Assembly: GCA_947452995.1 (NCBI GenBank)
Contig: CANGEV010000009.1
Coordinates: forward strand, 1 to 64,000
Reading direction: 5' to 3'
Length of the DNA stretch: 64,000 nt
Origin: Chitinophagales bacterium
GTDB lineage: Bacteria; Bacteroidota; Bacteroidia; Chitinophagales; CAIODY01
The notes beneath the pieces are model-generated. The model saw nothing but the letters and a program-made list of their open reading frames with translations, did not search any database and was not told the origin of the DNA. The position numbers and the translations under genes were made by a program. Numbering within the stretch: the stretch's first letter is position 1; every line of letters begins with the position of its first letter. This document shows, in pieces, positions 1 through 14,143 of the stretch.

Positions 1-162
1 GTTGGTGGAACGGCCATAAAAAATGTTCGAATCACAGAACGTGGGCAAGGACAAATGACTGTCTATGCTGAAAACCTAAGTGCAGGAATGTATACCTATT
101 CACTCATTGCTGATGGCAAAGTAGTGGCTACCAAGAAAATGATTTGCGAAAAAAATAATTAG
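1..162 (+). CDS. C-terminal end of a T9SS-secreted protein (5' end outside window)
   Basis: The frame is open from base 1 to a TAG at 160-162 and encodes the last 53 residues of a larger protein. The tail reads AENLSAGMYTYSLIADGKVV followed by a short basic stretch. This is the usual form of a type A T9SS sorting domain: a beta strand, the L-x-x-G-x-Y-x-Y core, then K-rich final residues. Such tails direct export across the outer membrane and are then removed. Nothing can be said about the functional part of the protein because it lies outside the window. The assignment rests on the tail motif only. Confidence 0.7.
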   Translation, partial: VGGTAIKNVRITERGQGQMTVYAENLSAGMYTYSLIADGKVVATKKMICEKNN

Positions 163-197
163 AGGGGAAAGAATAATTTTCAGATGCATACATACAC

Positions 198-231
198 ATA
201 TAAAATTTAATATAAAATTTAATATAAAATA
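198..231. repeat. 12-bp AT-rich tandem repeat, about 2.8 copies
   Basis: The unit ATATAAAATTTA occurs at 198-209 and 210-221, with a partial third copy ending at 231. It lies in non-coding sequence. Confidence 0.8.
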
Positions 232-233
232 TA

Positions 234-408
234 GATGGTGCTTCAATTGCTTTAGCACAAAACTTGGTGGAAGCAAAACCTGCTTTCAATCCTGACTCCA
301 AATTCCAAGCGACTAAAGCAATGGGCGCCATTAGCTACACTTGACCTTGCGCAGGCAAAAATTGAAATTCTAGCGCTTATCGAACTTTTCAACAAAACAA
401 TTTATTAA
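234..408 (+). pseudogene. Possible remnant of a coding sequence with a frameshift
   Basis: From 234 the plus strand reads DGASIALAQNLVEAKPAFNP and continues to a stop near 345. One base over, the reading continues as LDLAQAKIEILALIELFNKT up to a TAA at 406-408. Both halves look like natural protein (amphipathic, Ala/Leu/Lys/Glu rich), but they lie in different frames and no start codon is evident. It may be the eroded C-terminus of a lost gene. I do not recognise the family, and chance coding potential cannot be excluded. Confidence 0.3.
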
Positions 409-530
409 AAAAGCGCTCATGAAATATTGAAAAATAAAATCGTAATTTCAAATCAATAATCAATTAATTAAATAACCTCAAGTGTAGGCTTTACCCCTCG
501 TGAGGGTATTTAAAAGTTATTGAAAACTGT

Positions 531-538
531 TTTATTTG
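531..538 (+). promoter_or_regulatory. Candidate -7 box TTTATTTG
   Basis: The octamer differs by one base from the Bacteroidota -7 consensus TAnnTTTG and ends 12 nt before the ATG at 551. No -33 TTG lies at the usual distance, so this is tentative. Confidence 0.35.
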
Positions 539-550
539 TAAAAAAAAGTC

Positions 551-934
551 ATGGAAATTTCAATCAACCAAGCAAACGAATTACAAGACCAACTTAAAAA
601 TGCAGATCAATTCTATTTAGCAAAATCCTATCTCATCCCTTCAGATCTGCTTTCGCAAGCCCTCAATCTCTCACCCGAACAATTGAGCCAATTTGCAGGC
701 TTACGTATTTATTTAGGTGCAGAATATTCAGCACCCGTTGATCAGGCAGCAAACAATAAAGGAACCCTTACTGTGAGCCCAGTTATTGTGGCCGTTGATA
801 ATAATGGGAATGATATTATGATTCAAACACCAACCGAATCAAACAGCAAAATATTTACTTCATCATTTTTTTGCCCACCTACATGCCCAGCGAATAATAA
901 TTTAAGTGAAAATGCTATTATCAAGATATCTTAA
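551..934 (+). CDS. Hypothetical protein, first gene of the two-component operon
   Basis: This 127-residue protein has no signal peptide and no membrane segment. The N-terminal two thirds (about 1-95) look like a compact cytoplasmic domain with a helical start (ELQDQLKNADQFYLAKSYLI). The C-terminal part is Ser/Asn/Pro-rich and contains two nearby cysteines in a CPPTCP motif. I do not recognise the family. Its TAA overlaps the next ATG by one base (TAATG), so it is very probably co-translated with the membrane protein, kinase and regulator downstream. A role as a sensory or accessory partner of that system is inference from context only. Confidence 0.6.
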   Translation: MEISINQANELQDQLKNADQFYLAKSYLIPSDLLSQALNLSPEQLSQFAGLRIYLGAEYSAPVDQAANNKGTLTVSPVIVAVDNNGNDIMIQTPTESNSKIFTSSFFCPPTCPANNNLSENAIIKIS

Positions 935-1557
935 TGTATCTATTTAATTTTATAGCCACTTTCTCAGTTTTATTTCCATTTATTGCTGGAAATATGATTA
1001 AGAAAAGCTATAAAAATAATTCATTAAATTTTATTATAACCCAATTTGCTACTGTATATGTAGACGCCTATATTTGGGCTGAAATTTTTGCGTGGAAATT
1101 TCACAACAATATACCAATCTACACATTACTCAATCTTGTAGAGTTAGTATTATTTTCATTATTCGTTACAAAGCTTTTACAAAGCAAAAGAGCGCATTTT
1201 ATTATTTTTGTAACAATTACAATTCTATTTGGTGAATACATTTTCAGGAAAAATGTCTGGGAATTTTATTCTTTTTTCTTCAATGTAAAATGCCTAGCAA
1301 TTATTGGTACTTCTTTTTCTGTAATTTATTATTTAATAAAAAACCAATCCATTAATAAAAAAATACTTTTAACCCTCTTTTTCATCCTTAGCATATTGTT
1401 CTACAACCTTTGCACATTCTACATCTACTTATTTTTAGACCATTTACTCCTCAAACAAAATAAGAGTATAATAGAATTGCTCATTTCAATTACACTAACT
1501 GTTGAAATACTGCGGAATGCTAGTTGGTTACTCATATTAAAAAAGTATGGAAACTAA
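934..1557 (+). CDS. Polytopic membrane protein upstream of a histidine kinase
   Basis: The 207 residues form about six hydrophobic segments with short loops, beginning immediately at the N-terminus (YLFNFIATFSVLFPFIAG). There are no recognisable catalytic motifs. Aromatic residues and Ile/Leu are very common and charged residues sit in the loops. The gene starts inside the stop codon of the preceding gene, and its last 11 bases overlap the start of the histidine kinase gene. The kinase has only one membrane helix and no sensor domain. A reasonable inference is that this protein is the membrane sensor or signal-input subunit for it. I do not recognise the family. Confidence 0.65.
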   Translation: MYLFNFIATFSVLFPFIAGNMIKKSYKNNSLNFIITQFATVYVDAYIWAEIFAWKFHNNIPIYTLLNLVELVLFSLFVTKLLQSKRAHFIIFVTITILFGEYIFRKNVWEFYSFFFNVKCLAIIGTSFSVIYYLIKNQSINKKILLTLFFILSILFYNLCTFYIYLFLDHLLLKQNKSIIELLISITLTVEILRNASWLLILKKYGN

Positions 1558-2344
1558 ACTCCTTTACACTTCCCTAGTGTTTTTATCAATGTCAGTATTA
1601 ACATTGATAAGCATTGCCATTTTAATTAAAAGCAAGTTTAGTCATCAAAGAGAACAGAGAGAGGCGAAAATAAAAGCCGAACGTGAACTATTTCGCAAAA
1701 TTTTGACCGAAAAAGAAAAGCATTTATTACACGTTTCACAGGAATTGCATGATATAGTGGGTGTCAAGGTTTTTGGATTGGGGCTTTTACTACAAAGTGA
1801 TGAAACATTCCGTAAGCTGAAAGAGGAGGTCTATGCGCCACAATTTATCCAAGAAATTTTAGCAGAAACCAATGAGATTGCCCAATCCATTCGATCCCTC
1901 TCCCATGAATATCAACCAAGAATTGGTATGGGCGTAAGCTTACAAGGCGCCCTCAACAACTTTATTCAACGTATACTAGAAAGTAAAAAATATAAGTGCC
2001 AGATTCATTTTTCCATGAACGAAAGCGCTATTGAAATAGATGTAAATAGCGCCATTGAAATCTATCGCATACTCTGCGAATTAATCAAGAATATATTGCA
2101 GCACGCTGATGCTAGCAAAGCTGAGCTCTTACTATTTCCTGAAAAAGAATCTGTTTCAATATGGGTGAAAGATAATGGCATCGGTCTGGCAAACGACCCC
2201 AACAGCCTTCAAGGAATAGGTCTTCAGAATATTAAAACCAGATTAAGTCTTTACGGCGGTACCATGAAAATAGAACCTGCGGCGAGTGAACGTGGCACCT
2301 GTATTTTTATAGAAATCCCGTATCTAAGCACTAACGAGAATTAA
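1547..2344 (+). CDS. Sensor histidine kinase, HisKA_3/HATPase_c type (LytS/NarX-like)
   Basis: A 265-residue kinase with one N-terminal transmembrane helix (about 7-27), a charged coiled-coil linker (30-60) and a HisKA_3 dimerisation box with the phospho-acceptor His68 in ELHDIVG. The HATPase_c domain follows, with the N-box (CELIKNILQHA), the DNGIGL motif and the GIGLQNI/G-T-C G2 region near the end. There is no periplasmic sensor domain, so the signal must come from another protein, plausibly the 6-TM protein encoded by the overlapping upstream gene. It should autophosphorylate and pass phosphate to the response regulator encoded one base downstream. Confidence 0.93.
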   Translation: METKLLYTSLVFLSMSVLTLISIAILIKSKFSHQREQREAKIKAERELFRKILTEKEKHLLHVSQELHDIVGVKVFGLGLLLQSDETFRKLKEEVYAPQFIQEILAETNEIAQSIRSLSHEYQPRIGMGVSLQGALNNFIQRILESKKYKCQIHFSMNESAIEIDVNSAIEIYRILCELIKNILQHADASKAELLLFPEKESVSIWVKDNGIGLANDPNSLQGIGLQNIKTRLSLYGGTMKIEPAASERGTCIFIEIPYLSTNEN

Positions 2345-2345
2345 T

Positions 2346-2987
2346 ATGCAAGAAAAAGTTGTAAAAATCTATATTGCAGATGACCATTCCATTATAATTG
2401 ATGGACTGAAATCGATATTAAAGCATGTGCCCAATTTCGAGATTATTGGCAGTAGCACCGACCCCAAACAAGTCCTACAGGATATTATCAAGCTTGCACC
2501 GGACATTGTGGTTATCGACGAATACATGCAAAGTAAAAATGGAAGCGAAATTTTAAATGAATTGAATACTAGTCGGATGCATACGAAATTCGTTTTCCTC
2601 TCTAGTTCTCACGACCAAAATATCATGCTGCTCGTTAAGAAATTAGGGGCACATGCTTTCATCCATAAGAATGTGGGCGCTCAAAACATCATTGAAGTAT
2701 TGCAGGAAGTACATTTGGGCAAAGAACGCTTTGACGATCTCCACCCGGATTTTGATCCGGAGGCGAATACCATCCGAATGCAAAAAGTCCTTACCCCACG
2801 TGAGTTATTACTTCTCAACCTCATCCTTCTAGGACTTACCAATAAAGAAATTGCCGAACGCTTAGACCGTAGCAAACATACCATCGATACGCAACGGAAA
2901 TCACTTTACAAAAAAATCAAACACGAAGGATATACCAGCTTTTCACATATGCAAACAGAAATAGACTGGAGCAAGTTTGATCTATAA
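2346..2987 (+). CDS. Response regulator, NarL/LuxR family
   Basis: The 213-residue protein has an N-terminal receiver domain (about 6-125) with the acidic pocket D12-D13, phospho-acceptor Asp58 in VVIDEYM, and the conserved Lys in FIHKN. A LuxR-type helix-turn-helix follows (about 148-205: LTPRELLLLNLILLGLTNKE and the recognition helix around SKHTIDTQRK). It is the cognate partner of the kinase just upstream (one base between the genes). The last 86 bp of the gene (2902-2987) are part of a 142-bp sequence that recurs identically 8 kb downstream, where only the tail of the gene is present. The copy here is the intact one. Confidence 0.93.
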   Translation: MQEKVVKIYIADDHSIIIDGLKSILKHVPNFEIIGSSTDPKQVLQDIIKLAPDIVVIDEYMQSKNGSEILNELNTSRMHTKFVFLSSSHDQNIMLLVKKLGAHAFIHKNVGAQNIIEVLQEVHLGKERFDDLHPDFDPEANTIRMQKVLTPRELLLLNLILLGLTNKEIAERLDRSKHTIDTQRKSLYKKIKHEGYTSFSHMQTEIDWSKFDL

Positions 2988-3043
2988 TCTTAATTCACCT
3001 TATAAACACGAAAGGCCTTCGTGTCTAGGACTTCTTCAAAGCC
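2902..3043. repeat. 142-bp direct repeat, left copy
   Basis: Identical base for base to 10980-11121 (offset 8078). It spans the last 86 bp of the response regulator gene, a 2-bp spacer, and the last 54 bp of the glycosyltransferase coding sequence on the opposite strand. The two copies bracket the AT-rich T9SS segment. Confidence 0.97.
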
Positions 3044-3142
3044 TAATAGCCAAAGCTGTAAGCGACTAAAAAGTGCTACCCAAAAACTACTCCGTAACAA
3101 TAAAGGAGCTGCGATTAAAACGCTCAACAAATAGTGAATTCC
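2990..3142 (-). pseudogene. Truncated, internally deleted copy of the glycosyltransferase gene at 11068-12594
   Basis: Read on the minus strand, this segment encodes SVLIAAPLLLRSSFWVALFS, then a short Leu-rich stretch, then GFEEVLDTKAFRVYKVN. The intact gene downstream has IVLIAAPLLWQSSFQAAVFS about 100 codons before the same 17-residue C-terminus, so roughly 300 bp (equivalent to 11122-11424) are missing here. The last 54 bp are identical to the intact gene, while the part at 3050-3142 differs by very roughly 20%. No start codon or N-terminal two thirds exist. A 71-codon frame (2990-3205) persists but is unlikely to be functional. The rest of the gap up to 3291 is AT-rich and holds nothing recognisable. 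Confidence 0.85.
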
Positions 3143-3291
3143 CAAAAGTAGACTCACATTCCGCATAAAAGGTGCGCCTTTGCACCTCCGTTTTACACAT
3201 GGCAAGGGTATTGTGCTTACTCGTGAAACCTCCTTATTTTAATTTATAAAAACGTTTACGCACCTTTTAGTTAAATTATTTATATTCACAT

Positions 3292-4211
3292 ATGAAAAAT
3301 AAAGTCATTACAATCTTAATCATCCAACTTTACTTTTGCTTTACCTCTTCTTTTGCGCAAAGCAATATTTACCATATTCCTTGGGCAAAATTGGATGCCG
3401 CATATACTTTCCCTTTTTGGCTAGAAGACAATTTCGGTAATAAAGATACCCTTTATGTCTGTTTTGATCCGCTATGGAGTAATATTCCTGGTGATTCCTC
3501 GATGATAAAACTGGGACATATTAAACGCGCTTCCGCGCAAGGAATGTTCATCGCAAGTACCGAGTATCCCGATTCGTTGCTTGTCTACAAAACTAGTGGG
3601 GTAGATAAGTGGAGCAACTATGGTGCACATATATGGATAAAATTCAATAGTTCTTGTCAAATCAAATTATCATGGGACGTTCAATCACTAAGAAATTCAA
3701 TATTGCCATTTCAAAATACGCCTCTGCTACCAAAAGCAATGGGAGGATTATCGTTTTCGCAAACACCTAGCACAATTCCTGGTCCTTTTTATCAAAGTGA
3801 TGTCTATTTCTCAGACACTCTAAACCAATTGCAATATTTTAGTTACCACCAATCGACCACATTAATATAAATTGGCCATACAAATCAGATAGTATTTATG
3901 ATTTCAATTTTTGGTTGCGCCAATGGAATGATTTCACAAATGCAAACACAATTAAAAACGATGACAAATCAACTATTAAAATAACTCAAAGTGGCCCTAC
4001 CACTTTAATTGTCCAATACGATTATTCAACTACCCCTTTTGATTTTACTTTAAGAAACATCCTTGGTCAAGAACTACAAAAAAAAAGAATGTGTAGTAAC
4101 CACGAAATTATTGAAGTCGACAAGTTTCCTCCAGGTATTTATATTGCATGCATTCAAAACGACTTGGGAAAACCCATATGGAGACAAAAAATATCTATCA
4201 ATAATTTATAG
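3292..4211 (+). pseudogene. T9SS-secreted protein gene broken by one frameshift
   Basis: The first part (3292-3870, 192 codons) starts with a signal peptide (MKNKVITILIIQLYFCFTSS, then FAQ) and stops at a TAA. One frame over, the sequence is open from 3843 and continues without a break as PIDHININWPYKSDSIYDFN and on to a type A T9SS tail (core PGIYIACIQNDLG, end IWRQKISINNL) at 4211. The shift therefore lies within 3843-3870. Joined, the product would be about 306 residues. No slippery heptamer is visible, so a mutation or sequencing error is likelier than programmed frameshifting. The second part has only a TTG as nominal start and is not an independent gene. The C-terminus is closely related to that of the gene at 9855-10964. 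Confidence 0.8.
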
Positions 4212-4225
4212 TTAAGTGGCTTAAA
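4131..4225 (+). repeat. 95-bp near-identical repeat covering the T9SS tail, copy 1
   Basis: Matches 10884-10978 with 5 differences in 95 bp. It covers the final coding part of the sorting tail, the stop codon and about 14 bp beyond. Identity in the non-coding end indicates a DNA-level duplication or gene conversion, not only protein-level conservation. Confidence 0.9.
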
Positions 4226-4317
4226 TCGCTTTAAGTTATTTAACTAAAATAATTATTTATATTTTTTAATTTTAATAAAAATTCAATCAATTTTTCACTA
4301 ATAAAACAGAAAGACAA

Positions 4318-7300
4318 ATGAAAAATAAAATTCTATTTCTACTTATAATACAAGTATGTTTTATTAACTTAAATCAAAAGACAAATGCTCAAACGGATTC
4401 GTTACAATTTATAGCTAACCACATTGCATACACACATGAATTAGACTCACTAGTTGACAAAGAAGGCCATAGAGTTGCACTTGAAGATTTAGCTGTTGGA
4501 CATAAATTAGGTGATGAAAGTAAATACACTTCACAACTTTTATGTACTTCAGGCTACTTTAATTTATGGTTTGAACAAGGTTGTGGAATGGAAGGTAATT
4601 CAGCTATTGAGGTTGCAAGGAGGAATGTATTGTGTAGAGTATTTTACGATCTTTCGCAACTTATTAATTTACCACCTGGAACTACTGTAAGGGTGAATAT
4701 GTGGGTTAGAGACATTCACATGATTACATCTAACCCTTGTACAGCAGGAATACTTGGAGGTGCAACATCATTTTATCCGATTCCATTGGGTATAAACAGT
4801 AGTGGGATTGCTGACAATCTTATTTGGCAAACTATTAATTCTGGAACCGATGCCTATACAAACATCACAACTCCTTTAGCTTCACTTGGAGGAGGCGCTG
4901 GCGTTGGTTTTTACCATGGTTTGGTTGCATTTAATTTTGATAACTGTAATTCGTGGTTTCCTAATAATTCATGGACACCTCCATTAGGATTCCCAACAAG
5001 TTCTAATCAATACGACCTATACACTGTTTGTTTACATGAAGTTGTTCATGCATTAGGATTTGCGTCATTAATTGATGCAAACGGTTTTTCACGATTCGGT
5101 TCAAGTTTAAATTATTTCAGTCGCTATGATATGTTTCTAAAAACATCTGTTTCCAATGGGAATATCCCGCTAATTAATAATACTGGAAATTGTAGCTTGT
5201 ATAACTATACGTTTAACACAAGTATTCCAGGAGGAACATCGGTATTAAATCCAGGCTGTACGGTCGGATATCCATCTAACAGCTCCGTATGTTCAAATGC
5301 AATACGATACGTAAGTACATTAAACCCAAGTCAACCAATTTATACTCCAAATTGTTTTGAGCCTGGTAGCAGTTTAAGTCATTTTGAAGACATGTGTTCT
5401 AACCTACCTTCAACATACATACCTATAAACGATGGCTATTTCACTATGTCAAACGCAAATGGGGCAGGCACAATTAAGCGATATTTAAAAGAGGAAGAAA
5501 AAGATGTATTGTGTGATATTGGCTATGTTCTATCAAACACTTATGGAAATAATTTACAGGTAGCGAACTCGGCTGTAAACTATAATTCTAGTTGTTCAGG
5601 AAATAAAGTAGTAGGGATTAACGATGGAATCATTGGAGGAGCATATCAATTCATTGGCACTGCTGGGGGAGCAGCAGCATCCATTTCAGGCGCAACAATT
5701 CTATCTAATGATTATGATGGATATGCTTCCCCGCCTTTTAATCCAAGTAAATTTGAATGCTTACAAGATATAACAGACCCTTTTGCAGTAATCTCCAATT
5801 CATTTGGCACTAATACAAATACTGTTTCAGTAAATTCAACAATAGTTGGCCAACATTTATTACGCTATATTCCATTAGATTTAGCAACTGGAAGAAGAGG
5901 AAATATCACCTACATTCTAGTTTATTTCAAAAGTGGAAATTGTTTTGGTTCTCCTTGCGAAATTGTAACGAACGGAGGATTTGAAAACGTCAGAAATTTA
6001 GGAGGAACAGGTGTAGCTTGCTCTCCAATTTCAGCTACTATAATAAACAATGCTGATTGCTGGATAACTTTAAGTAACACTTATGATTGCTACAGCTCAG
6101 CAAGTCCTTGCCTTTATGCAGATAATGCATACCCTGCAATTTACTTTTCTCCAAATGCTAATTCAACAGCAGTTTATAACCCTGCACCTTTTCCAAACAC
6201 CACATTTATTGGACTCGGAGGTTGGTATTATAATAATAACGATCCTTCTACTTCAACCAACAATTACTATTTTGAAGCGATTCAAAATCAACTTAATACC
6301 CCATTGATTCCAGGCCAACAATATATTCTTAAAATGATGGTTAAGGCTGGTAATAAAAACAACCATTTTAGTAATCTCGTACTTAGAGTATTCGCTAGTC
6401 AATACGTATTATCGCAAGTAAGCAACCTCATTTCCACTTATTTTAACAACCCCTCAACTCCAGATATTGCACATACAATTTTGGTTCCTAGTACAACAGT
6501 TATAGGGGCGCCAACATATTGGACTTCTGTTAGTGTAACATTTACCTGTCCTAGTATTCCATCAGGTGGAAACCTCAATTATATAGCACTTGTAACCGAT
6601 TTTCAACAAACTGCAAATCTTGCTGGAAATACCCCATTTGGAACCAGCGCTTCTGCATATATATATATTGATGATGTTTCTATTGAACCTTTAAACTCAG
6701 CAATTACATTAAATTTACCTACAACAAGTAGCTGCTCTACAAATTTAATTCCAGACTTATCAATATATTTGAGCACTCCAATACCTGGTGGCGTGTTTTC
6801 AGGTGCAGGTGTTTCCTTTACTGGTGGAATTTATAGTTATAACCCTGCTATCGCAGGTCCGGGCATGCACATTATTTCATACTCTTATACTGATTTTAAT
6901 GGATGTCATCATACCTGTTCGGATAATATTATGGGTGGCCAAATAACACCATTTAATGTTTCATTTAGTAATATTCCAGGAGCTTATGAACCTTTACTGT
7001 GCACTGGAACAACTTCTTCACTCACTGCTACTGTTTCAGGAGGTAGTGGTAACTTTTCCTTCTTATGGTCAACTCCATGCGGTATTATAACAAATACAAC
7101 AAACACTCTTACCACATCTAGTATCTTGTATATAAACAACATGGTTCCTTGTGTATATACACTTAGTGTTACAGATAATATATCCGGGTGCATAATTTCT
7201 ACACCTTATACAATTACAAATTTAAGTACACTTGTGTTATCTACAGCAACTTCAACAAGCACCCTTCCTCAAACATTATCAGGTGCAACAATTCTAGTAT

Positions 7301-9855
7301 ATTCAAATACAACTTTAACTGTAAATAGTAATTTCACATTAAATAATTGCAATGTAATTTTAGGAGCAAATGCTACTATAAATGTTCAACCTGGTTTTAC
7401 GTTCGATATTGATAACACTTCACATCTCCATGCATGTTCAAGTATGTGGACAGGTATTAATGTTTATAATAATGCAACAGTTAAACTAAGGGGTTCAAGT
7501 ATATTAGAAGAGGCTCAAATAGGTATTAATTCAGTTAATGGCGGTGCTTATGTAATTGATAATGCAGCAATGTTTAATAACTATATGCATTTACAGGTAA
7601 GCAGCTATGCCAATACACACACAGGTACCATTAAACAATCTGTTTTAGATGGTCATCATAATATTACAAGGTTATTACAGCCATTTTCAACACTAACTCA
7701 GACCTTCAAATCCATATATATTCTTGATAATTTTAGTGTAACCATCGGAGTTCCAACATCTGGTTTGGGGAACACAATTACCAATTCAGATTATGGCATC
7801 TTTATAAATAATAATGTTGTAACTAACACCAATAAAACATTCATATATAATAACACAATTACCAATGCATCTAAAATAGGAATCTATGACAGCAGTGCAT
7901 CCACCAATCCAAACAATAAATTTTTAACAATTGGTCATACAACTCTTAAAGCACCATATTTGAATACGCTCAACAATTGTTTATTCGGCATCCGAAGTGT
8001 TAGAACAAATAATACCATCTGCAATAATGATATTACTGGGGGATTAAGAGCAATTACTTGTCGTTTCAACTATTTAAAACCACAACGAATTTGTAATAAT
8101 GATATTCACTATCCCCGTGAGGTTGGTATTAGTATGGAATATTCTTCACAAAACATTTCTGATGCAGCAGGAACACAACGTGTAGATTATAACAATATTT
8201 GGATGAGCTCAACTGGCACCCCCTGCAATATTTCAGTTATTACTTTGCCAAGTGGAGGCACATTACCTGCCAAACAATGCAACCTGCAAACAGCAATTAG
8301 ACATTTAGATATTGTGCCCAACTACAATGGGCGGTTTCAAATTAATTACAACAATGTCTATCAACCAGACAGGGGTATTTATATAAGTGGAGGCAACCAT
8401 GATTTAATAAGTAATAATACAATAAATTTACCAAGTCCTTATGCTATGGGTAGAGTAGAAGGAATCCTAACTTCTGTTTCTACTTATATTGCAACAGAAT
8501 ACAACACCGTCAATAAACCTTCTTGGGCGAATCCAGGTTGCATAAGTGGCTATAGCAATAATTGTATTAGCGTAGGACTTGCCTTCTTTAATTCAACCAA
8601 TTCACTAGCACAATGCAATACTACTAACTTCACTAGCAGAGGCTTCGAAAGTAATAATACAACCACAAATACATACTATAAAGGCAATATAATGAATACG
8701 AATGAAGTTGGATGGTGGCGAATGAATAACAGTTTTGTCGGCCACCAAGGTACAGCAACAAATTGTTGGGGTAATCAATGGACTGGTGGTTTATATTCTT
8801 CTACAAGACCTCAAACACTTACTTATAACACTCCTACTTGCCCTGGTTGTGGTGTTACAGGTACTATTAAAACTAATATCTATGTTCCCGCTGCTGCTCC
8901 ACCTGCCTTTCATCATAATCCGACAAATGAAAGGCATGACGTTCCAAGCAGTTTTACATATTTTAAAGAAGCATTGTCATCTAATATTATTTACTCGTGC
9001 GCAGGCGGTGGCACGGGTGGCGGTACTCCAACTACTCCTACATTTAACTATAATGATAACGGTTATATCAGTTATGCTGAATTAGTAGCTACTGATGCTT
9101 TGCAATACCCTGAATTTCCCGAAGAAGCAAGGTATTATGATGCGGAGCATTTGCTGGAAGCCATAAGAGAAGATGCAACCTTGCTACAAAATGATCTAAT
9201 TGACAGTTTCTATACACTTACCGAAGACGAAAGCATCAATCAGTTTTTGGACGTACAAGCTGCCATAGCCGCTGGCGAATTACAAGATGCAGGTCAAATA
9301 ATTGGAAATATTGTTCCCGATGGCATTATTGAAGAACACAGAAGACAAGTTTATGAAATCTATTTAAATACCATTGCTTTAGAAAACGATGAATTTACAG
9401 AAGATGAACGAAACATATTAATGCAAATAGCTTTTCAATGTCCTTATACAGGAGGGAAAGCAGTTATTGAAGCACGTAACATGTTAGCCCTTACTGATTC
9501 AACCAATTATGATGATAGTACATTATGTGGCGAAAATTTCGCTTACCGTCAAGGCAGTCATCAAAGTACATTTAAGCCAGTAAAACGTATTACTGAATCA
9601 GGTAATTTCTTTTCAGTTTATCCCAACCCAACTAATTCAATTGCTTTTATAAAGTGGAATTTGGCGACAGATTGTAGTAATTGTACTATTAAAATTGTGA
9701 ACGTTTTAGGTGAAGTAGTTAAAGAGCAAAATGGATTAACAGAAAAAGGGAAATTGGAAATTTCTACTTCCACACTACAACCGGGTATTTATCATTGCTT
9801 ATTGATTACTAATGGTGCAGTTACCCAAAGTAAAAAACTGATTATTGTTAGATAA
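4318..9855 (+). CDS. Very large secreted metalloprotease-like protein with jelly-roll, beta-helix and T9SS tail
   Basis: The 1845-residue protein starts with a signal peptide (1-24, ending in NAQ). Residues about 50-405 form a zinc metalloprotease-like domain: H240-E241-V-V-H244-A-L-G, a candidate third ligand His355 in SLSHFED, and a possible Met-turn Met377 (FTMSN). The spacing is more like leishmanolysin-type (M8) metzincins than HExxHxxGxxH enzymes. A carbohydrate-binding-like jelly roll follows (about 545-795, from NGGFEN to YIYIDDVSIEP), then a PKD-like region, then a long Asn/Thr-rich right-handed beta-helix (about 1000-1530) with many short N-N-T-I repeats. A Gly-rich linker (GGGTGGGTPTTP) precedes an acidic helical region (about 1580-1740). 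The last 80 residues are a type A T9SS tail (VYPNPTNS, LQPGIYHCLL). It is probably displayed or released at the cell surface. Protease activity and substrate are untested inference. It overlaps the next gene by one base (TAATG). Confidence 0.85.
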   Translation: MKNKILFLLIIQVCFINLNQKTNAQTDSLQFIANHIAYTHELDSLVDKEGHRVALEDLAVGHKLGDESKYTSQLLCTSGYFNLWFEQGCGMEGNSAIEVARRNVLCRVFYDLSQLINLPPGTTVRVNMWVRDIHMITSNPCTAGILGGATSFYPIPLGINSSGIADNLIWQTINSGTDAYTNITTPLASLGGGAGVGFYHGLVAFNFDNCNSWFPNNSWTPPLGFPTSSNQYDLYTVCLHEVVHALGFASLIDANGFSRFGSSLNYFSRYDMFLKTSVSNGNIPLINNTGNCSLYNYTFNTSIPGGTSVLNPGCTVGYPSNSSVCSNAIRYVSTLNPSQPIYTPNCFEPGSSLSHFEDMCSNLPSTYIPINDGYFTMSNANGAGTIKRYLKEEEKDVLCDIGYVLSNTYGNNLQVANSAVNYNSSCSGNKVVGINDGIIGGAYQFIGTAGGAAASISGATILSNDYDGYASPPFNPSKFECLQDITDPFAVISNSFGTNTNTVSVNSTIVGQHLLRYIPLDLATGRRGNITYILVYFKSGNCFGSPCEIVTNGGFENVRNLGGTGVACSPISATIINNADCWITLSNTYDCYSSASPCLYADNAYPAIYFSPNANSTAVYNPAPFPNTTFIGLGGWYYNNNDPSTSTNNYYFEAIQNQLNTPLIPGQQYILKMMVKAGNKNNHFSNLVLRVFASQYVLSQVSNLISTYFNNPSTPDIAHTILVPSTTVIGAPTYWTSVSVTFTCPSIPSGGNLNYIALVTDFQQTANLAGNTPFGTSASAYIYIDDVSIEPLNSAITLNLPTTSSCSTNLIPDLSIYLSTPIPGGVFSGAGVSFTGGIYSYNPAIAGPGMHIISYSYTDFNGCHHTCSDNIMGGQITPFNVSFSNIPGAYEPLLCTGTTSSLTATVSGGSGNFSFLWSTPCGIITNTTNTLTTSSILYINNMVPCVYTLSVTDNISGCIISTPYTITNLSTLVLSTATSTSTLPQTLSGATILVYSNTTLTVNSNFTLNNCNVILGANATINVQPGFTFDIDNTSHLHACSSMWTGINVYNNATVKLRGSSILEEAQIGINSVNGGAYVIDNAAMFNNYMHLQVSSYANTHTGTIKQSVLDGHHNITRLLQPFSTLTQTFKSIYILDNFSVTIGVPTSGLGNTITNSDYGIFINNNVVTNTNKTFIYNNTITNASKIGIYDSSASTNPNNKFLTIGHTTLKAPYLNTLNNCLFGIRSVRTNNTICNNDITGGLRAITCRFNYLKPQRICNNDIHYPREVGISMEYSSQNISDAAGTQRVDYNNIWMSSTGTPCNISVITLPSGGTLPAKQCNLQTAIRHLDIVPNYNGRFQINYNNVYQPDRGIYISGGNHDLISNNTINLPSPYAMGRVEGILTSVSTYIATEYNTVNKPSWANPGCISGYSNNCISVGLAFFNSTNSLAQCNTTNFTSRGFESNNTTTNTYYKGNIMNTNEVGWWRMNNSFVGHQGTATNCWGNQWTGGLYSSTRPQTLTYNTPTCPGCGVTGTIKTNIYVPAAAPPAFHHNPTNERHDVPSSFTYFKEALSSNIIYSCAGGGTGGGTPTTPTFNYNDNGYISYAELVATDALQYPEFPEEARYYDAEHLLEAIREDATLLQNDLIDSFYTLTEDESINQFLDVQAAIAAGELQDAGQIIGNIVPDGIIEEHRRQVYEIYLNTIALENDEFTEDERNILMQIAFQCPYTGGKAVIEARNMLALTDSTNYDDSTLCGENFAYRQGSHQSTFKPVKRITESGNFFSVYPNPTNSIAFIKWNLATDCSNCTIKIVNVLGEVVKEQNGLTEKGKLEISTSTLQPGIYHCLLITNGAVTQSKKLIIVR

Positions 9856-10964
9856 TGAAACTGAAGTTAAGACATATCATAGCTCAATTAGTTGTGCAAG
9901 GTGTTATAGCACTTTGCACAACTTTTTTGTGTTTTGGGCAAATTAAAATTCCAAATCCTTCTTTTGAAGATACAGTTTATTTTAATTTTAGTAGTATATC
10001 GTACTGTTTTGCAAAAGACTGGAAAATTTGTAGCTATACTCCTGATTTAATTTGGCAAATTCCGAATAATCATCCACCGTCTTCCAATGGTTCTTATTAT
10101 GTTAATTTGGCAAGTGAATTTGATTATCCAGTAAAAGAAGCCATGTCTGTAAAATTACCATGCGCTTTAAAAACAGGAGTTAAGTACAAGTTTAATGTTG
10201 ATTTAAGAATGTTTGAGATTAATAATAATCAAGAGTACTCAGGTACCCTCTACTTTTATGGAAGCTCACAATCTTGCAATCACGATTCATTATTATGGCA
10301 ATCTCCTGAATTGAAAGATACGACAAAGTGGGCAACCTATTGTATAAAGTTTACTGCTCATGAAGAAATAAGCTATTTGTATTTTACGAGTGGCTCTTTT
10401 CAAGACCACGGAGCTATGACAGGTGGGGCAGTTTTAATTGATAATCTATCGAACATCTCAATCGACAGTGGTTATACTGCTATCAAAATACAAACAACTG
10501 CTAATACAATTGTAAATGGCGAATGTGTCACCCTTAACAATAATTATCTAATAGGCAACCAAACAGAATATAAATTACAGTGGCTGCAAAACGGTATTGT
10601 AATTGACAATGGTTATTCGCTTAATGTTTGCCCAAATACAACCACAACCTATTATGTAAAAGCAATTGATAGCTGTGGGTATTATGGCTCAGATAGTATT
10701 ACCATAACTGTAACACCGAGTAACAAAGCATTCTACAATTCAACAACGGGTAAACTACAACTGCAATATTCATTAAGTGAAAATGCAACTTTTAAAATTT
10801 ATAATATGCTAGGGCAAATAGAAAACGAATTAACACTAAGTAAAAGCCGATATCAATCAGAAATTGATGTACGCGGATTAACACCAGGTATTTATATTGC
10901 TTGCATTCAAAACGACTTGGGAAAAATCATATGGAGACAAAAAATATTTATCAATAATTTATAG
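9855..10964 (+). CDS. T9SS-secreted protein with N-terminal jelly-roll domain and Ig/PKD-like domain
   Basis: A 369-residue protein with a signal peptide (about 1-29, FLCFGQ). The N-terminal domain (about 30-200) opens with IPNPSFED and closes with AVLIDNLS. This is the same frame as carbohydrate-binding-like jelly rolls and resembles the one in the large protein encoded just upstream. An Ig/PKD-like domain follows (about 210-290), with the typical LQWLQNGIVI and TTTYYVKAIDSCG elements. The type A sorting tail (about 295-369) has a C-terminus nearly identical to that of the broken gene at 3292-4211. Its ATG overlaps the upstream stop, so the two are translationally coupled. It may bind a surface polymer or act with the metalloprotease-like protein; that is inference. 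Confidence 0.8.
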   Translation: MKLKLRHIIAQLVVQGVIALCTTFLCFGQIKIPNPSFEDTVYFNFSSISYCFAKDWKICSYTPDLIWQIPNNHPPSSNGSYYVNLASEFDYPVKEAMSVKLPCALKTGVKYKFNVDLRMFEINNNQEYSGTLYFYGSSQSCNHDSLLWQSPELKDTTKWATYCIKFTAHEEISYLYFTSGSFQDHGAMTGGAVLIDNLSNISIDSGYTAIKIQTTANTIVNGECVTLNNNYLIGNQTEYKLQWLQNGIVIDNGYSLNVCPNTTTTYYVKAIDSCGYYGSDSITITVTPSNKAFYNSTTGKLQLQYSLSENATFKIYNMLGQIENELTLSKSRYQSEIDVRGLTPGIYIACIQNDLGKIIWRQKIFINNL

Positions 10965-10978
10965 TTAAGTGGCCTAAA
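10884..10978 (+). repeat. 95-bp near-identical repeat covering the T9SS tail, copy 2
   Basis: Partner of 4131-4225 (5 differences). Its right end is one base before the start of the right 142-bp repeat at 10980, so two independent repeats meet exactly at the island edge. Confidence 0.9.
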
Positions 10979-10979
10979 A

Positions 10980-11065
10980 CACTTTACAAAAAAATCAAAC
11001 ACGAAGGATATACCAGCTTTTCACATATGCAAACAGAAATAGACTGGAGCAAGTTTGATCTATAA
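10980..11065 (+). pseudogene. Orphan 3' tail of the response regulator gene
   Basis: These 86 bp are identical to the last 86 bp of the regulator gene at 2346-2987 (from the end of the HTH recognition helix through the TAA). They are not attached to any upstream regulator sequence: the base before belongs to the T9SS segment. It is a duplication footprint, not a gene. Confidence 0.9.
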
Positions 11066-11121
11066 TCTTAATTCACCTTATAAACACGAAAGGCCTTCGT
11101 GTCTAGGACTTCTTCAAAGCC
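10980..11121. repeat. 142-bp direct repeat, right copy
   Basis: Identical to 2902-3043. Its left 86 bp are a duplicate tail of the response regulator gene. Its right 54 bp are the genuine 3' end of the intact glycosyltransferase gene on the minus strand. Confidence 0.97.
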
Positions 11122-12594
11122 ACTCATATCAGGACTTAGCAGCTGCCAATGTGGAGCCTCTTTATATTCGATGAAATAGTCGATGTGATAACGCTTCAAC
11201 TCCGCCAAATAATCTTCAATCGATACGTCGAAGTTTTCTAAGGTATAATAATGAAAGTCCGTCAAATAAGCTAGCACCCAAGAAGGACCGGATTTATAGG
11301 CGTTTGACGTGATATTTCCATGTAAGTGCGCCTGCTTCAGGACTGCGGCTTGCGTAAACAACTCCTCATTTTTATGCCAGCGTGCTGCCGTATCTATCAC
11401 CGGGAACAGTAAGGTCGCTCCCATGAGCCAAGGATATAAGCGACTAAACACCGCTGCCTGAAAACTGCTCTGCCACAACAAAGGAGCTGCGATTAAAACG
11501 ATCAACAGATAACGCGTTTCGATGTGCACACTCACATACAAGCCTACTAATATCACCGCAAAAAACCAAGGATCGTCCTTCCAAAAACCCTTTTGCAAAA
11601 GACTTACCCGCTTCTTTTTCCAGACAAAAATCAACAGCAGTAACAAGAAAAACAGATTCAACTCCCAAATGCATTGCAGCGCTATCAATCCATTCAACAT
11701 TACCTTCGCCACATATTTCACAAAAAAGTAGCCACTGCTAAATGGCGTCGTAAAAGTGCCATGTAACAGCATCGGGTCATCCCACAAGGAGTGTGCCCCT
11801 TCATAGGCAGGAGGAATTAAAAAGGTAATGGGCGCCTTAAAGGCCTTATGTCCATTCACCATCCAACTTAAATTCAATTTACCAGAAAGACCGAATGGCG
11901 CATAGACACCATATTGCGCATGATAGGCCAGCGCCGCTGGTAGTAACATTAGCGCCATCACAACAAAGGAAAGCAACAGTCGTTGAATCGCGTCCTTTCT
12001 GCTAAGTCGTTTTTCCAAAAGCAACTTCCCCACAAATAGCGTGATAAAAACGAAGAAAAAAGGTCCATTAAACGACTTCGCATAAGTAGCCACGCCCATT
12101 AAAACAGCCAGCACAAGCCAGTTACGACTATTTTTCACAAAATCATCGCGCAATAATAGATGTAAGGCAGGTATAACAAAGAGCAGTTGTAATAGATCAC
12201 CGAAAGTCTGCAAAAAGACATAATACACCAAAACCGGCGCTATTACTAATAAGAAGCCTCCATGCTGTTGGATCGTTAGATTACGCTTGCGTAAGAAAAG
12301 ATGCGTTTCAACAAGTACCAGTCCTCCGAAAAACACGTTCAATACCTGTGCAGTATAGAAAGTCGTCCATCCCCAAGCACGCGTCCATTTCACCAAAGGG
12401 AATAATACCCATTGATTTAGCGGACTCCATAAGCCGTTGAAAGCCTTATCCCAATGCCCTTTCACGAGCTCGTCTGTCATTTGCAGGTAGGCGGTACAGT
12501 CGTCATCTAGCTGAAATCCGAGGGCAGGAAAAAGCGCGTACCATAAGACGGCAAACAAACCCAAGGCGAGGAAGAGAAAATGACCTTTTTTCAT
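11068..12594 (-). CDS. GT-C type membrane glycosyltransferase (ArnT/PMT-like, GT39-like)
   Basis: A 508-residue polytopic protein (about 11-12 hydrophobic segments) with the first periplasmic loop carrying an acidic LDDDCTAYLQM motif right after the first helix. This is the position of the catalytic acidic residue in GT-C enzymes that use polyprenyl-phosphate sugars. The C-terminal soluble tail (about 420-508) is short. The enzyme probably transfers a sugar from a lipid carrier to a lipid, glycan or protein on the outer face of the inner membrane; donor and acceptor cannot be read from sequence. It was the natural convergent neighbour of the response regulator before the island appeared, and an internally deleted copy of its 3' part lies at 2990-3142. 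Confidence 0.75.
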   Translation of the reverse strand: MKKGHFLFLALGLFAVLWYALFPALGFQLDDDCTAYLQMTDELVKGHWDKAFNGLWSPLNQWVLFPLVKWTRAWGWTTFYTAQVLNVFFGGLVLVETHLFLRKRNLTIQQHGGFLLVIAPVLVYYVFLQTFGDLLQLLFVIPALHLLLRDDFVKNSRNWLVLAVLMGVATYAKSFNGPFFFVFITLFVGKLLLEKRLSRKDAIQRLLLSFVVMALMLLPAALAYHAQYGVYAPFGLSGKLNLSWMVNGHKAFKAPITFLIPPAYEGAHSLWDDPMLLHGTFTTPFSSGYFFVKYVAKVMLNGLIALQCIWELNLFFLLLLLIFVWKKKRVSLLQKGFWKDDPWFFAVILVGLYVSVHIETRYLLIVLIAAPLLWQSSFQAAVFSRLYPWLMGATLLFPVIDTAARWHKNEELFTQAAVLKQAHLHGNITSNAYKSGPSWVLAYLTDFHYYTLENFDVSIEDYLAELKRYHIDYFIEYKEAPHWQLLSPDMSGFEEVLDTKAFRVYKVN

Positions 12595-12619
12595 AGTGGA
12601 AAGTTAACGAATAAAGTGG

Positions 12620-12650
12620 TTGTAGGATTGCATAAATAGCCGTTTATTTG
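12620..12650 (+). promoter_or_regulatory. Candidate promoter TTG-N20-TTTATTTG
   Basis: A -33 TTG at 12620-12622 and a -7-like TTTATTTG at 12643-12650 (one mismatch to TAnnTTTG) are separated by 20 bp, within the Bacteroidota range. Only 8 nt separate the box from the ATG at 12659, so the leader would be almost absent. Confidence 0.45.
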
Positions 12651-12658
12651 TAGGAACT

Positions 12659-14143
12659 ATGCGCACCTACTTCTTATACTCTATATTGGCTTTAGCCCTA
12701 TTTTTTACAGCATGTAAAGAGGGCATCTTAGGTAATTTATTGCCCAACAAAGCGCCTGATACTCATACGATCATCGAAGTGATCAACCGCAGTGGTGGTA
12801 GCCGTTTTCCATCCTCGGTAAAAATCCAATGGTGGGGCGATGATCCAGATGGTTATGTGCAGTCGTACCAATATACCTTCGACTATCCTGTTACTGCCAG
12901 CGCAAATTGGCACGCGATAACAGGTAATGATAGCCTTTTCTCTCTTACAACCCCTGCCGGCATTGATACCGCTGATTTTCATTTTAGCATCCGTGCAATC
13001 GATAACGAAGGACTAGCAGATCCTACTCCGGCAAGTGTAGCGTATCCGGTAAAGAACTCCAACCCTAGCGTGCAGTTTATTCCTGGTATCTATAACCCAA
13101 CCCGCACCTTTCCGGTAGTTCGTTTGTATTGGCAAGGCAGCGATCCCGACGGCTTTGATAATATTGCAGGCTACCAAATGGTTTGGAATGATACGGCACA
13201 AACAGCCTTAGAACTCGGTCCTAGCGTTAGTTCTATTATCCTGGAAGGACAAAACTGGACAGGAAGCACGACTACCTGTAATGTGTATACCAACAACAAT
13301 ACAAGCACACCTTCGAGCAAAACGCTTGGCGGCATGAAGTTGAACGCATCGAATATTTGCTATATCCGTATCAAAGATATCAGCGGAGCCTATAGTCATT
13401 GGGTAGCTTCTTATTCGATGTTTATCAAAAAGCCGAATAGCACGAAGCTTTTGGTAGATGCTTATACGAATACTTCGGCTACAGCCTTGAACTTCTATAG
13501 CAATAGAATGATCAATCAAAATTATACGGATTGCGATACCTTGAAATTGTTTGAAAAAGTGGGTGGCGTTTATTCGCAGTTGAGTGCCGATAATGCGACT
13601 CAAAGTAAGATTTTGAAATACTTCAAATTGATTGTTTGGTTTGGTGACAATACCGGCAATAGCTTATTCCTAGCGCAAAAGAGCTTGAATGATTTCTTCA
13701 CCGGTGGTGGTAAGTTATTCATAGGGATGCCGATGGATAAATTATTTTCCGGCAGTTCGCCTTCGCTAGCGTTTACGCCAGCAGCCTCTTTAACGGAGTA
13801 TAAAGATTCAACAATTATTTATAGCACCGACTCACTCAGCACTAGCAGTTTGAGTGGCTATCCTGTTTTGAAGAACAGCAACTATACGCAAAACATCAAG
13901 CCTTTCGTATTAGCACCAAATGCTTATGCGATTTATACCGCGAATTTGAATTACCAAAACGTGAGTTCGCCTATCTTCCCTATTCCAGCCTGGCATGGTC
14001 CTTCTTGTATCATGGCTGGTTTGAAAAATGCGGCTACGCTACAAACGATAATGGTATATTCACAGGTCGATCTTCAAACGCTCAACGCTTCTTCTAACAT
14101 TGATTTAGCTTGGGCTACTATCTTACAAACACTCGGCTACTAA
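12659..14143 (+). CDS. Lipoprotein with two FN3-like W-x-G-x-DPDG modules
   Basis: The 494-residue protein has a lipoprotein signal (LFFTAC, lipidation at Cys19). Two similar modules follow, marked by WWGDDPDGYVQSYQYTFD (about 60-77) and YWQGSDPDGFDNIAGYQMVW (about 155-175). They look like fibronectin-III-type beta sandwiches. The C-terminal half (about 255-494) is an alpha/beta region (KLLVDAYTN, FKLIVWFGDN, GGKLFIGMPMD) that may resemble a glutamine-amidotransferase-like or ThuA-like fold; this is a weak impression. Three bases separate it from the FtsX-type permease gene, so the two are likely co-transcribed. The function is unknown. Confidence 0.65.
   Translation: MRTYFLYSILALALFFTACKEGILGNLLPNKAPDTHTIIEVINRSGGSRFPSSVKIQWWGDDPDGYVQSYQYTFDYPVTASANWHAITGNDSLFSLTTPAGIDTADFHFSIRAIDNEGLADPTPASVAYPVKNSNPSVQFIPGIYNPTRTFPVVRLYWQGSDPDGFDNIAGYQMVWNDTAQTALELGPSVSSIILEGQNWTGSTTTCNVYTNNNTSTPSSKTLGGMKLNASNICYIRIKDISGAYSHWVASYSMFIKKPNSTKLLVDAYTNTSATALNFYSNRMINQNYTDCDTLKLFEKVGGVYSQLSADNATQSKILKYFKLIVWFGDNTGNSLFLAQKSLNDFFTGGGKLFIGMPMDKLFSGSSPSLAFTPAASLTEYKDSTIIYSTDSLSTSSLSGYPVLKNSNYTQNIKPFVLAPNAYAIYTANLNYQNVSSPIFPIPAWHGPSCIMAGLKNAATLQTIMVYSQVDLQTLNASSNIDLAWATILQTLGY

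Follow-up and report, generated by a model that had tools for sequence, protein, structure and literature searches.

Homology-facilitated illegitimate recombination, described in Acinetobacter and Streptococcus pneumoniae, combines one homologous side with one join at a short match. Chromosomal recombination hotspots hold variable content between fixed anchors, with a low-GC insert, divergence that rises inward and a relative in which the site is empty, and integrative elements at gene 3′ ends are flanked by copies of a gene's 3′ end while the target gene stays intact. In S. pneumoniae, transformation drives tandem duplication (merodiploidy) that is made by recombination (PMC3784515).

Here we analyse a T9SS cargo cluster enclosed by perfect direct repeats in a window of 64,000 nt that starts contig C9 of a Chitinophagales bacterium draft genome (G000; 2.54 Mb, 36 contigs), and compare it with two congeners, G001 and the sister species G002 (MAG22, Chitinophagales), with one genome per species. 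On balance, we favour reading the cluster as the right-hand part of a recombining variable T9SS cargo locus, anchored by a GT4-type glycosyltransferase gene (GT4, contig C22) and by a 494-aa gene (starting at 12659) and shaped by exchange and illegitimate joins.

The direct repeat and the genes around it

The features of the locus are, in window coordinates:

1–162, plus strand: 3′ end of a CTD-bearing gene; its first 149 bp equal the end of contig C28
551–2344, plus strand: 127-aa ORF, 207-aa ORF and histidine kinase (1547–2344), with a paralogous module on contig C35
2346–2987, plus strand: intact LuxR-type response regulator (RR)
2902–3043: left repeat copy, comprising RR codons ~185–213, intergenic DNA and the last 54 bp of the convergent gene
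3041–3159, minus strand: degraded remnant of the convergent 508-aa gene, codons ~354–392 joined in frame to the last 17 codons
3193–3240, plus strand: stretch 81% identical to the DNA that separates GT4 from its downstream cargo gene on C22 (L074:1412–1459), probably a cargo promoter region
3292–4211, plus strand: cargo 1, a T9SS CTD gene with its frame interrupted near 3870
4209–4246, plus strand: intact terminator-like hairpin after cargo 1, 17 pairs and a 4-nt loop
4318–9855, plus strand: 1845-aa T9SS cargo, metalloprotease-like (weak NF038122 match); G002 ortholog 83% identical (aa)
9855–10964, plus strand: cargo 3, a T9SS CTD protein; G002 ortholog 56% identical (aa)
10962–10986, plus strand: cargo terminator hairpin of which just the left arm and loop are present, joined at the apex to the RR 3′ end
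10980–11121: right repeat copy, from codon ~185 of RR (a truncated second tail) into the intact convergent gene
11068–12594, minus strand: intact 508-aa convergent gene; aa identity to G002 falls from 97% at the N terminus to about 63–74% towards the cluster
12659–14143, plus strand: 494-aa gene, the right anchor, which adjoins GT4 in G001

The preliminary description had proposed an 8-kb cargo island bracketed by perfect 142-bp repeats. The repeats are real: the two copies agree at 142/142 bases, with 0 bp of further identity on either side (146 bp, 2898–3043 and 10976–11121, if one mismatch is allowed), and the whole genome holds only these two. The left copy is the end of the intact RR and the right copy leads into the intact convergent gene, both as previously placed. 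The convergent gene had been called a glycosyltransferase; it is intact, but the name is unproven, as the 508-aa protein has no Pfam match at E 0.01, and it contains many hydrophobic stretches. Ending the left copy at 3043 had also overlooked the convergent-gene remnant that continues past this position. Its stretch 3048–3133 is 81% identical to 11426–11511, the remnant matches the intact gene at 69/86 bases, and a deletion of ~300 bp that keeps the frame open separates the remnant codons from the last 17 codons of the gene.

Because the remnant next door has diverged from the intact gene (17 of 86 aligned bases differ), 142 identical bases imply that copying or conversion took place recently; at the remnant's divergence, the chance of 142 unchanged bases is 3 × 10^−15 (computed with 18/86). 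Judged by these base differences, the repeat is of much later origin than the degraded gene piece adjoining its left copy, and it arose within a variable locus that already existed. The copies could recombine and possibly delete 8,078 bp or excise a circle, as the geometry of any direct repeat allows. That the arrangement arose during assembly is very improbable: the genome is a draft and the contig begins 2.9 kb left of the repeat, within a repeat, but C9 contains no N, both junctions are unique sequences rather than what an assembler would invent, and the sister assembly independently puts the cluster beside the same gene.

The identification of the enclosed genes as T9SS cargo holds. All three carry the C-terminal sorting domain of type A cargo, with TIGR04183 above cut-off in each and PF18962 in two, cargo 1 falling below. 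The frame break of cargo 1 (3860–3915) reflects either a pseudogene or a sequencing error. ORFs of at least 80 aa in 2987–11068 are T9SS cargo genes or unassigned or overlapping frames, with no integrase or recombinase of a 3′-end integrative element among them; likewise, no transposase or integrase was seen between the repeats, in agreement with the earlier reading. Neither the repeat nor the cluster had a match in plasmids, phage protein families or viral contigs, a tRNA search of the window found none and an Rfam search of 1–13000 found no family.

On the left side, no ortholog of RR was found in G001 or G002, the best matches being about 30–33%. The paralogous module on C35 (L086) of the source genome runs from a small ORF through a membrane ORF, a histidine kinase and a response regulator to a secreted cargo-like gene. 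CTD-bearing gene 3′ ends occur twice per genome (window 1–162 and the end of C28 in G000; C158 and C6 in G002) and are alike at 99% within G000, 98.6% within G002 and about 81% between species. These pairs may reflect concerted evolution or repeated duplication, and assembly may contribute, as contigs end there. On C22, a 23-bp sequence just past the GT4 stop (L074:1–23) recurs at the very end of the contig (1459–1481), inside a fibre-like gene, so the next segment may be repeated too.

The cluster in a sister species and an empty locus in a congener

A scan of the genomes' contigs for the cluster gave the G002 locus as the sole match. There, contig C11 carries a cargo gene, the protease (83% aa), cargo 3 and the convergent gene (77% aa) in that order, and gene order is common to C11 and the window for some 10 kb beyond the convergent gene. 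Compared in this way, the locus does not hold up as a self-contained 8-kb island, as the protease and third cargo stand in the same order in G002. The presence of the cluster beside the same gene in a sister species argues for a hotspot rather than a new mobile element, and the cluster looks like a reshuffled recombining hotspot.

In G001 (L077), just 97 bp separate GT4 from the 494-aa gene that follows it, and this interval holds no cargo, regulator or convergent gene. Since the anchors are adjacent in G001, the variable locus is the stretch between GT4 and the 494-aa gene. An empty site in a relative, of the kind that the preliminary description had proposed to look for, thus exists, but it lies between these two anchors. 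Upstream of GT4, C22 of G000 and C14 of G002 keep the same gene order for about 10 kb; the joins C22–C9 and C14–C11 span contig gaps and are inferred from the gene order of G001. In the other genus of the family, the left neighbours of the 494-aa gene differ, so its adjacency to GT4 characterises the genus to which G000, G001 and G002 belong.

Between cargo 3 and the convergent gene, G002 carries the last ~240 bp of GT4 instead of the regulator. This fragment is 95% identical to GT4 of G002 itself and 86% to that of G000; being closer to its own GT4, it must stem from a duplication that postdates the separation of the species. The comparison indicates that, in two species and in separate events, copied 3′ ends of another gene of the locus came to lie at the same cluster border. 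In G000 the right border falls 12–22 bp past the cargo stop, in G002 it lies about 39 bp past the stop, and the joined sequence differs. Judged at this right border, as the G002 assembly does not reach the left end, the two clusters do not share the same element ends. An RR-like tail at the G002 cargo border, KLKQEGY, was not convincing (370 of 20,000 shuffles were as good).

These borders bear on two further explanations. A Campbell-type integration, the view of the preliminary description, in which a circle carrying the cluster and a segment of RR 3′ end, intergenic DNA and convergent-gene 3′ end entered the RR/convergent-gene junction, to be restored by excision, would fit the geometry exactly and would include the diverged remnant as part of the circle; the G002 cluster may likewise have copies of its left neighbour's 3′ end on its flanks. 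We nevertheless consider it unlikely, as neither an integrase nor a replicon or circle is in evidence, the cluster is absent from the plasmids and viral contigs searched and the borders in G000 and G002 differ at the base level. It is more doubtful still that the cluster is a unit that keeps moving without a recombinase and gains, at its right border, the 3′ end of the gene to its left; the 3′ ends of RR and the convergent gene would have been acquired here and that of GT4 independently in G002, with breaks at cargo terminator hairpins.

Flank divergence and a proposed recombination mechanism

The DNA between the repeats is AT-rich, as had been stated (GC 0.347 in 3044–10979), but 163–2897 has an equal GC of 0.347, and the repeats are no boundary; GC is 0.327 after GT4 on C22 and 0.40–0.44 to the right of and outside the locus, values that fit the wider locus. 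With the AT-rich tract extending left of the repeat as far as the contig start and the G002 cluster lying beside the same convergent gene, the repeats do not stand as island ends.

The locus has the features of a chromosomal exchange hotspot: the anchors are conserved, G001 is an empty relative, and divergence rises towards the locus, clearly on the right flank and slightly on the left. Identity between G000 and G002 along the right flank, in 300-bp steps outward, is 69.7, 63.9, 66.7, 84.7, 93.7, 83.7, 84.7 and 85.0%, and further out 91–98%, mostly 95–98%; on the left flank it is 89% compared with about 91–96%. In dS, the protease reaches 0.59 and cargo 3 reaches 0.99, and the near half of the convergent gene is at saturation, whereas most flanking genes have 0.17–0.36 and the 494-aa gene has 0.45. 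Exchange of allelic versions by way of homologous flanks would produce such a rise towards the cluster, and we read the gradient as a footprint of homologous exchange. Faster cargo evolution, under relaxed or positive selection, could add to the divergence.

If the RR/convergent-gene junction had simply been duplicated in tandem around the cluster, with redundant parts then lost and the repeat kept uniform by gene conversion, this would explain why one copy adjoins the intact RR and the other the intact convergent gene, and why the junctions lie at short matches; other gene 3′ ends are also nearly identical within each genome and 81% identical between species. Such a history would need several separate deletions, however. 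Further, the remnant matches the convergent gene of G002 at 45/86 bases, and the three-way comparison gives 6 changes unique to the remnant, 7 to the intact gene and 30 to G002; the similar counts of 6 and 7, though small numbers, are easier to reconcile with two alleles than with one copy in decay. We regard this duplication as quite unlikely.

In the favoured reading of a recombining variable locus, whole allelic versions would replace one another through homologous recombination in the flanks, with natural transformation as one plausible route. G000 encodes a ComEC-family protein; ComEC is widespread and its presence is no proof of competence. Illegitimate joins at short matches, near the cargo terminator hairpins, would leave 3′ ends of neighbour genes at the cluster border, and the 142-bp copy would have arisen, or been homogenised, recently through such an event. 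Cargo 1 and cargo 3 share 93% identity in their tails, over 103 bp that reach the right junction, where the arm and loop of the cargo 3 hairpin switch to the RR tail at an AAxCxCTTTA-like short match. We reasonably infer that hairpin-provoked breakage or template switching could have acted at this one clear junction at a hairpin apex; the G002 border also lacks a full hairpin, with a different exact break.

Relation to described systems

The locus suggests that perfect direct repeats flanking a gene cluster need not signal a mobile element, and that recombination by itself may exchange and rearrange the surface and secreted proteins of a Bacteroidota lineage; two species each hold independently copied neighbour gene ends at the same cluster border.

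As in merodiploidy of S. pneumoniae, direct repeats surround a duplicated or added segment, and recombination alone, with no transposase, would have produced them; there, by contrast, a pre-existing repeat (IS861 remnants) directs the event and whole genes are duplicated (PMC3784515). The proposed mechanism would share with homology-facilitated illegitimate recombination a homologous side and a short-match join. Flanking copies of gene 3′ ends and an intact target gene recall integrative elements at gene 3′ ends, from which the cluster differs in having no integrase seen and no conserved element ends. With chromosomal recombination hotspots the locus has in common variable content between fixed anchors, a low-GC insert, divergence rising inward and an empty relative; it differs from them in its content, T9SS cargo with a two-component module, and in the extra copies of neighbour 3′ ends at the cluster border.
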